NCBI RefSeq assembly: GCF_021533835.1
Contig: NZ_JAKFYQ010000001.1
Location: 253,001-317,000, forward strand
Reading direction: 5' to 3'
DNA length: 64,000 nucleotides
From: Synechococcus sp. Nb3U1
GTDB lineage: Bacteria > Cyanobacteriota > Cyanobacteriia > Thermostichales > Thermostichaceae
Notes under the pieces: generated by a model
What the model was told of the DNA's origin: nothing
The model's database searches: none
Seen by the model: only the letters and a program-made list of their open reading frames with translations
Position numbers and translations under genes: made by a program
In this document: in pieces, positions 28,817 through 36,964 of the stretch
Numbering within the stretch: position 1 is the first letter of the stretch
How the letters are laid out: every line of letters starts with the position of its first letter

Positions 28817-28901
28817 AAGGTCAGTCCGGCTAATTGAGGGACAGGCTGTAAATTTGATCAATTGAAATGTTTTGAAATGTTTGCCCTGCTTGTGAACTAC
28901 T

Positions 28902-29014
28902 CCCGACGCTATGCCTACGGCAGACTACGCCAACATCTTATCCTTCGGGAAGCAAGCTACAGGTAGAGCGCGGGGCTAGGAACGACCTGCGGTCTACCTG
29001 CCTAGTAGCTAAAA
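28902..29014. repeat. 113-bp structured repeat, copy A (near tRNA-Leu)
   Basis: Matches 36581-36692 over its whole length, from CCCGACGCT to CTAGTAGCTAAA. Internal inverted repeats include CGCGGG (28969-28974) pairing with CCTGCG (28986-28991) across an 11-base loop. In copy B the same stem is CACAGG/CCTGTG, so paired bases have changed together. A second hairpin centres on TCCTTCGGGAAGCAAG. It lies 95 bases from tRNA-Leu. Probably a mobile-element end or structured RNA; no coding frame fits. Confidence 0.7.
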
Positions 29015-29109: not shown

Positions 29110-29190
29110 TGCGGATGGCGAGACTCGAACTCGCAAGGTAGAACCACACGCCCCTCAAACGTGCGCGTATACCAATTCCGCCACATCCGC
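29110..29190 (-). tRNA. tRNA-Leu (anticodon GAG)
   Basis: The minus-strand sequence begins GCGGATG and ends CATCCGC plus discriminator A, giving a perfect 7-bp acceptor stem. The D-arm GCGGAATTGGTATACGC, anticodon loop TTGAGGG (anticodon GAG, genome CTC at 29154-29156) and T-arm GCGAG-TTCGAGT-CTCGC are all in place. The 3' CCA is not encoded. Confidence 0.93.
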
Positions 29191-35056: not shown

Positions 35057-35449
35057 AAATCTGGGCCCAGGTCTGAACCCATAGTCAATGTATCCTGGAA
35101 TACGAACTTAAGAAAGATCCTTCTCCCCCCAGGATTACCGCCAAGCCCGAATTCGGGCTTAAATCACAATAGTTTAACGGATCCCTAAGAGATATTGCAA
35201 AGGGCCTTTTTTGAGAATCTTGACTTTATCCATCAAGTAATCTTGGTATATCATTGAGGGCGTCTATAGACCGACTGATCTTCGCTTTGGTTGAAATCTT
35301 TAGTTGAAATCTTTGGGGCCTCTGCTCAGACTGGTCTTCCATTTTTTTTTGATTTAGGCAACTTTTGTTAACGTTCCTGGATCCCAGATTTTTAGGATCC
35401 ATCTTGTGTCACTTTCGTTTTGAAAGATTTCCCGAAAAAGGAGAAACCT
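35057..35449. other. 393-base intergenic region with possible promoter
   Basis: No protein-like frame was seen. It contains TTGACT (35220-35225) and TATATC (35247-35252), a possible promoter pair with a long 21-base spacer, and a run of ten T near 35342. It leads into the small lectin-like gene, whose ATG has a good AAAAAGGAG ribosome site. Confidence 0.35.
35290..35314 (+). repeat. Tandem 12-mer GTTGAAATCTTT, 13-bp period
   Basis: Two identical copies of GTTGAAATCTTT lie at 35290-35301 and 35303-35314, one base apart, 136 bases before the lectin-like gene. The period is slightly over one helical turn, as in activator-binding direct repeats. Function unproven. Confidence 0.4.
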
Positions 35450-35998
35450 ATGTCTACTCAATCTGCATCTGATACTTTGGGGTTGCCGGAAATGCAATTG
35501 GCTTCTGTTCCTGCCCAGATCATCTGTGATGGCAGTGACTTGGATTGGAGTCAGGCTTTGGTGATTGAGGGTAGCCATCCTGAAGAAGAGGGGTTGCAGG
35601 CGTGGATCTGCTTCCGAGGGCTACGGGTGAATCAAGATCTGGGCAACATTCTGCGCTGGGAGGAGCGTCCGCTACGGGCTAGCCGGATCCGATTTTCCGT
35701 CAACAATGTAGCCTGGCGCTACGGCTTCTCCTTTTCCACCGGGATCAAATCTCCTCTCGGTAAAGGGATCCCTACCCCCGACGGCTGGCGCTATCCTGGT
35801 CTCTGCCGCTACGGCATTGTTTTGTTCCAACCCAACGCCCAACTGGTGGCCCATCAGGTGCAAGAGGCTTCGCTAGAGCGGCCCCAAGAGGTAGATCTAG
35901 ATCCCAATCTGGATATTGGGTTCAATGTCAACGATGCCAAAGGCAGTTACGGCGACAACAGCGGCAGCTTTGATGTTTACCTGCAAGTGGTGGGGTGA
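35450..35998 (+). CDS. Small lectin-like (LecA/PA-IL-type) protein, tentative
   Basis: 182 residues from the ATG at 35450 with a strong ribosome site (AAAAAGGAG). The C-terminus GFNVNDAKGSYGDNSGSFDV resembles the calcium- and galactose-binding end of PA-I galactophilic lectins (N-D...Y-x-D-N-x-G). The rest (WRYGFSFSTGIKSPLGKGIP, DGWRYPGLCRYGIVLFQPN) is beta-rich and unlike anything I recognise. No signal peptide is seen, so it is probably cytoplasmic or released some other way. Its stop is only 4 bases from the edge of decayed tnpB DNA. The lectin assignment rests on one motif. Confidence 0.5.
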   Translation: MSTQSASDTLGLPEMQLASVPAQIICDGSDLDWSQALVIEGSHPEEEGLQAWICFRGLRVNQDLGNILRWEERPLRASRIRFSVNNVAWRYGFSFSTGIKSPLGKGIPTPDGWRYPGLCRYGIVLFQPNAQLVAHQVQEASLERPQEVDLDPNLDIGFNVNDAKGSYGDNSGSFDVYLQVVG

Positions 35999-36019
35999 AG
36001 TACCCGACGCTCATCGCAA

Positions 36020-36477
36020 GCGATAGAACGCGGGCTTCTCTAATAGTTTTTCCACCACAATCACTTGATTCTCGTTTGCTATCTTGAAGGATAGCTTGTG
36101 ATGAAAGTCTTTTCTAAGCTGTGCAATCTTGCTATGCACCTTAGCAATTTTTAACCGCGCTTTATTCCTGTTTTTTTCTATCTTTTGAACGTCTGGATAG
36201 TTTGCACTGTTTGTGTTTTAGGTTGCGTTTATCCTTCTTGAGGTAGCGAGGATTGGCAAGCCTAGAGCCCTCAGAAGTGATAGCGAAGTCTGTCAATCCC
36301 AAGTCAATTCCAATGGCATTCTCATCGCTAGACTGTTCTGGCTTAGTCGCGCCATCTTCTACTACCAGAGAAGCAAAGTATTTACCATCTCGATAGCCAT
36401 CGCGTACAGCCAAAATGCTTGGCTAGTGTGATAAGCTGCTCATTGGTGGGATAAATTCTGACCTTAATTGTTTTCAA
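36020..36477 (-). pseudogene. tnpB: Decayed tnpB (IS200/IS605-type) gene
   Basis: From TTG at 36477 the minus strand reads KTIKVRIYPTNEQLITLAKH, a typical TnpB N-terminus. It then jumps, by deletion, to a frame reading DGYRDGKYFASLVVEDG and IGIDLGLTDFAITSEGSRLA (RuvC-I with its Asp), ending in a stop. A frame shift continues ARLKIAKVHSKIAQLRKDFH and NENQVIVVEKLLEKP (RuvC-II Glu region), where the gene stops. The zinc-finger and RuvC-III parts are missing. No tnpA is present. It cannot encode an active nuclease; it marks an old IS605-family insertion. Confidence 0.8.
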
Positions 36478-36580
36478 AATGTTTCTGTGTCAGTATAAAT
36501 CTGACATCGTGATAAAGCGCTATCTGTTAAGAATTGGAGATATTTTGTTCCTTTGCTTTGCTCAGTCACGCGGCTCTCAT

Positions 36581-36692
36581 CCCGACGCTACGCCTACGGC
36601 AGGCTACGCCAACACCTTGCCCTTCGGGAAGCAAGCTACAGGTAGAGCACAGGGCTAGGAATGACCTGTGGTTTACTCGCCTAGTAGCTAAA
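36581..36692. repeat. 112-bp structured repeat, copy B (beside tnpB remnant and tRNA-Ser)
   Basis: Homologous to 28902-29014 along its whole length. Its hairpin is CACAGG (36648-36653) with CCTGTG (36665-36670), a perfect 6-bp stem around the same 11-base loop as copy A. It begins with CCCGACGCT, a 9-mer also found at the far end of the tnpB remnant (36003-36011). It lies 161 bases before tRNA-Ser. Likely an IS605-type end, a miniature element or a structured RNA. Confidence 0.7.
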
Positions 36693-36853
36693 TCCCAGCG
36701 GTTGCTTTTGACAGGGATCCCAACCGAGCTGACGCAAGAGAGTTGCCGGGTCGGATCCCATCTTCTACAATGGTTGAGCTACTTACTGGGAGGGATCCCA
36801 GTTGGGGCTTCTGTACCTAGTTTTGCTGAACCTGGATAGGTTTGAGCTTAACT

Positions 36854-36943
36854 GGAGAGGTGGCTGAGTGGTTGAAAGCGGCTTCCTGCTAAGAAGTTAC
36901 GGGGCCTAAAACTCCGTCGAGGGTTCGAATCCCTCCCTCTCCG
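36854..36943 (+). tRNA. tRNA-Ser (anticodon GCT)
   Basis: The acceptor stem GGAGAGG pairs with CCTCTCC, followed by discriminator G at 36943. Anticodon stem-loop GCTTC-CTGCTAA-GAAGT gives anticodon GCT. A long variable arm typical of class II tRNAs and T-arm GAGGG-TTCGAAT-CCCTC are visible. The 3' CCA is not encoded. Confidence 0.94.
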
Positions 36944-36964
36944 TTCTCTACGATTTCACCGCTT

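Follow-up and report, generated by a model that had tools for sequence, protein, structure and literature searches.

We identified the paired repeat in the window (the whole 64,000-nucleotide stretch of Synechococcus sp. Nb3U1 DNA that was analyzed) as transposon material. Read on the minus strand, the repeat is almost certainly the left end (LE) of an element of the IS200/IS605 family, because it is homologous to the LE of the intact element L031 and to that of element L032. Copy B forms the LE of an insertion that carries a decayed tnpB, and copy A, to judge by its letters, is a palindrome-associated transposable element (PATE) of 122 bp, a fusion of both ends. This reading is directly supported by the homology, the boundaries, the empty site of B, the Y1 tnpA and tnpB found with the same ends, and the covariation of a hairpin shared by the ends.

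Repeat Copies and Full-Length Elements

The initial annotation had described a paired 113-bp repeat, copy A at 28902-29014 and copy B at 36581-36692, each with an 11-nt loop closed by an inner stem, CGCGGG/CCTGCG in A and CACAGG/CCTGTG in B. A BLASTN search with copy A against its own genome (3.49 Mb, four contigs) bore out these coordinates and the end-to-end match of the two copies (89% identity, E = 5.5e-37), and collected 22 full or partial matches, copy B among them; the letters of both stems were as described, and plus-strand RNA folding predicted both. The tnpB (OrfB_IS605) genes or remnants that adjoin several of the matches lie on the strand opposite to the one originally read. A mobile-element end had been one of three natures offered for the repeat, and it proved to be the right one, the repeat being the LE of full IS200/IS605-type elements. 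The boundaries were refined accordingly: the copy A element spans 28892-29013 rather than 28902-29014, and repeat B is one end of a 698-bp element at 35995-36692.

Three near-identical full elements of 1,920 bp, which differ pairwise at one or two positions, lie elsewhere in the genome on two contigs, each in the order LE, divergent Y1 tnpA, tnpB, and right end (RE). Their likeness breaks off sharply at a left-hand TTTAGC and a right-hand GAGCGTCGGGAGTAGTTCAC, beyond which the flanks differ, so that the element borders are TTTAGC...GTCGGGAGTAGTTCAC; the termini TTTAGC and AGTAGTTCAC are unlike in sequence. The left border TTAGC is common to most copies, and TAGC is present at the empty site of B in three relatives; the cleavage point is ambiguous. 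The Y1 tnpA and a 430-aa TnpB, which matches PF01385 (OrfB_IS605), PF07282 (Cas12f1-like TNB), and PF12323 (HTH_OrfB), are encoded on opposite strands, and this gene layout is that of an IS605-type element. The Y1_Tnp profile (PF01797, 8.4e-38) gave three matches within the 1,920-bp elements, listed here by contig of this genome (G000):

C1:421387-421746, minus strand, Y1_Tnp match L038, one in-frame TAG
C1:2141051-2141410, minus strand, Y1_Tnp match L039, one in-frame TAG
C2:176235-176594, plus strand, Y1_Tnp match L040, one in-frame TAG

The in-frame TAG is present in all three matches although the elements are nearly identical, which makes present-day activity doubtful; either TnpA acted in trans, or the stop arose recently, or translation reads through it.

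Copy B, a Decayed tnpB Element

35995-36692, minus strand, copy B element of the IS605 family with decayed tnpB and both ends, LE at 36692 and RE at 35995 (...AGCGTCGGGTACTTCAC), from homology to L032 over the LE and tnpB start, the RE motif, and the empty site
36581-36692, minus strand, copy B repeat, the left end of the B element, from homology
36011-36477, minus strand, tnpB remnant, N-terminus MKTIKVRIYPTNEQ... joined to the middle part by an internal deletion, frame broken, from PF01385
35995-36036, minus strand, right end of B with the subterminal hairpin CCCGCGTTC...GAGCG-T-CGGG, from the RE motif and folding
36853-36944, plus strand, tRNA-Ser(GCT), neighbor of copy B outside the element, at the same site in relatives without B

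The left end of B runs into a tnpB remnant that resembles the tnpB of the 1,410-bp element L032, and the PF01385 (OrfB_IS605) matches in this remnant lie at C1:289044-289347 on the minus strand (36044-36347 of the window). Four congeneric genomes hold the flanks of B without the element; there, the neighbor gene is followed by the tRNA-Ser gene with no element between them, and the insertion point is the end of a protein gene. The RE of B lies at the 3' end of the gene at 35420-35998 and supplies its TGA stop codon; in the aligned relatives, this gene closes with another codon and stop.

Copy A, a Terminal-Only Derivative

28892-29013, minus strand, copy A, apparently a terminal-only (PATE/MITE-like) IS200/IS605-family remnant of 122 bp with TTTAGC at 29013 and ...GTCGGGAGTAGTTCAC at 28892; the LE half aligns with the LE of L031, and the terminal 19 bases, AGCGTCGGGAGTAGTTCAC, are identical to those of the L031 RE
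28961-29013, minus strand, left-end part of copy A (TTTAGCTACTAGGCAGGTAGACCGCAGGTCGTTCCTAGCCCCGCGCTCTACCT), which holds the stem described initially, from homology
28892-28960, minus strand, loop insert, 3' arm of the subterminal hairpin, and right-end terminus of copy A, from comparison with the intact element
29110-29190, minus strand, tRNA-Leu(GAG), neighbor of copy A outside the element

In copy A, the LE sequence continues up to and including CCCGCGCTCTA, and the closing 19 bases are identical to the terminus of the intact RE, so that LE and RE are fused with no transposase gene. As both ends carry CCCGCGCT..., copy A would most simply have arisen by deletion of the core that separates the two occurrences of this motif. 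We consider it somewhat probable that the short form itself once moved. It is also quite possible, if short of an even chance, that copy A is the relic of an in-place core deletion and was never a moving mini-element: the shared CCCGCGCTCTA would allow a repeat-mediated deletion, and such core deletions have been described for IS605-type elements in Haloquadratum (PMC3119063). On the other side, the end-only copies L005 and L006 elsewhere have a related arrangement and the right terminus and are more easily explained if the short form also spread, although they are not decisive. An empty site for copy A was sought in the relatives and none was found, because the flanks of A are not together, and not syntenic, in these genomes; for L016 and L018, the flanks match the relatives but lie on different contigs or in distant places.

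The loop of the hairpin at 28913-28934, as at other places, holds a 22-bp palindromic core (GTTGGCGTAGCCTGCCGTAGGC, up to three mismatches), which had 12 matches in the genome as against none for the reversed control pattern, and which is reminiscent of the small repeats that insert in IS605 palindromes. An independent genome-wide repeat was considered for the loop insert; the core matches that could be placed were mostly at or near IS605-type ends, and the insert was therefore treated as part of the IS605-type family.

Hairpins at the Element Ends

The inner stem had been thought to keep its pairs while its sequence changed, implying selection on a folded RNA or single-stranded DNA, and a covariation test had been proposed. 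Over 12 copies on the strand originally read, no excess covariation was found: the observed values were reached by 181/500 shuffles for paired cells, 186/500 for pairs changed on both sides, 213/500 for pair types, and 88/500 for the covariation score. Only in copy B have both bases of an inner pair changed with the pairing preserved. The changes in its stem are G:C-to-A:T transitions, and random placement of its six such changes in a 39-nt stretch, with their number and type as the sole conditions, produced a doubly changed but still paired position in 25% of trials. On the top strand of the transposon, the inner stem is broken at one to three of its six positions in every tabulated copy but B.

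Another, overlapping hairpin, CCCGCRCT/AGYG-T-CGGG, was predicted by folding at both ends of the intact element (LE, z = -3.2; RE, z = -1.9), as CCCGCACTG/CAGTG-T-CGGG in the LE and CCCGCGCTC/GAGCG-T-CGGG in the RE. This shared hairpin covaries among 19 end sequences from the genome itself and its relatives, with a score of 0.267 against 0.196 for shuffled data (reached by 0/500) and a signal that is destroyed by sliding the partner; the figure is supportive rather than a probability, since the alignment was hand-built with a constant spacer in place of the loops, contains multiple sequences from the same genomes, and leans to the chosen stem. The shared hairpin fits the subterminal structure bound by TnpA in the IS200/IS605 family (PMC7290912, PMC2806898). 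Related tnpB elements, present in high copy number in congeners, carry the same hairpin in the LE. In one congener (G004; L132, L135, L143, L146, and others), the LE hairpin was matched at least 40 times; most of the inspected matches are part of a different tnpB element, and some are short forms consisting of ends only (L123, L128).

The two hairpins share a CCCGCG arm, which probably explains why the inner stem was noticed. When copies A and B are folded as single-stranded DNA, an LE fold in competition with the shared hairpin is favored, and a well-conserved LE stretch, GACCGCAGGTCGTTCCTAGCCC, is able to base-pair with the 5' arm of that hairpin. We regard it as improbable that the inner stem is a competing fold which might switch the end between a TnpA-bindable and a blocked state.

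Alternative Explanations

A new structured RNA, or an omega-RNA-like scaffold, selected for the inner stem would account for the folding of copy A as plus-strand RNA (z = -2.12) and for the one compensated pair between A and B; however, copy B folds at z = -1.01, the covariation score over the 12 copies is readily reached by shuffles, the placement simulation yields a compensated pair at the frequency given above, and the copies with clear context lie at IS-type ends. An Rfam search of the window matched two tRNAs and no other described RNA family. The omega-RNA of characterized IS200/IS605 elements derives from the 3' end of tnpB and the RE, whereas the repeat is the LE, and thus the repeat is not such a scaffold. 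A structured RNA with this stem, now very unlikely, was rejected on the covariation over 12 copies together with the simulation.

The proximity of both copies to tRNA genes, which had also been pointed out, stood for A and B themselves (95 and 160 bases away), and could have indicated a tRNA-associated repeat, such as an integration scar or a tRNA regulatory element. The association failed at the other 20 of the 22 places, which have no tRNA within about 1.5 kb on each side (at L010, one side was shortened by the contig end). Moreover, the tRNA-Ser gene is already at the B site, at the end of the protein gene, in relatives without the element, and the repeat shares no boundary with either tRNA. 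As A and B are the only near-tRNA places and the tRNA-Ser is present without B, the proximity looks coincidental; a tRNA-associated repeat, to which we give hardly any credence, was rejected on the tRNA-free places and the relatives without B.

Proposed Mechanism

For the IS200/IS605 family ends, we propose that the CCCGCRCT...AGYG-T-CGGG hairpin at both ends would be the single-stranded DNA structure bound by a Y1 (HUH) TnpA, which would cut the element out and place it on the 3' side of a short TTTAG(C)-like target. In this scheme, copy B is the LE of an insertion in which tnpB has decayed, and copy A would have arisen when the core between the LE and RE copies of the hairpin was lost, probably by deletion, leaving fused ends. 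Such fused ends could be mobilized only by TnpA acting in trans.

Comparison with Known Elements

The ends and the derivative are of a known kind, namely, IS200/IS605-family ends and a PATE-like remnant. The PATEs of IS605-type transposons in Haloquadratum walsbyi are terminal-only, and core loss between repeated palindromes has been proposed for them (PMC3119063). Copy A is like them in being terminal-only, in apparently lacking terminal inverted repeats, and in having near-terminal palindromes that match IS605-type ends, and in both cases small repeats seem to insert in the palindromes; it differs in being cyanobacterial, in its sequences, and in combining a length of 122 bp with a loop insert of roughly 50 bp. 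IS605 and a PATE-like element of Halanaerobium hydrogeniformans (PMC7290912) are similar, by description, in their decayed tnpA/tnpB, ends-only derivative, and competing hairpins in an end; however, their LE and RE hairpins differ in sequence, whereas here the same stem is found at both ends. ISDra2 of Deinococcus and IS608 likewise have a Y1 TnpA, tnpB, and subterminal single-stranded hairpins at LE and RE. They insert 3' of a short fixed target, as proposed here; it is TTGAT for ISDra2 (PMC2806898), whereas the putative target here resembles TTTAG(C). The variants with internal deletions reported for ISSoc2 of thermophilic Synechococcus (Nelson et al. 2012, as cited in PMC10969869) resemble copy A as miniature derivatives of a cyanobacterial insertion sequence, and our impression is that the host is close to the ISSoc2-bearing strains.

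Taken together, the analysis removes a candidate new structured RNA and shows how apparent covariation can result when one of two diverged transposon-end copies drifts by G:C-to-A:T transitions. It also contributes a cyanobacterial IS605-type element mapped to its exact ends, along with a decayed copy that has empty sites in relatives and a terminal-only derivative.
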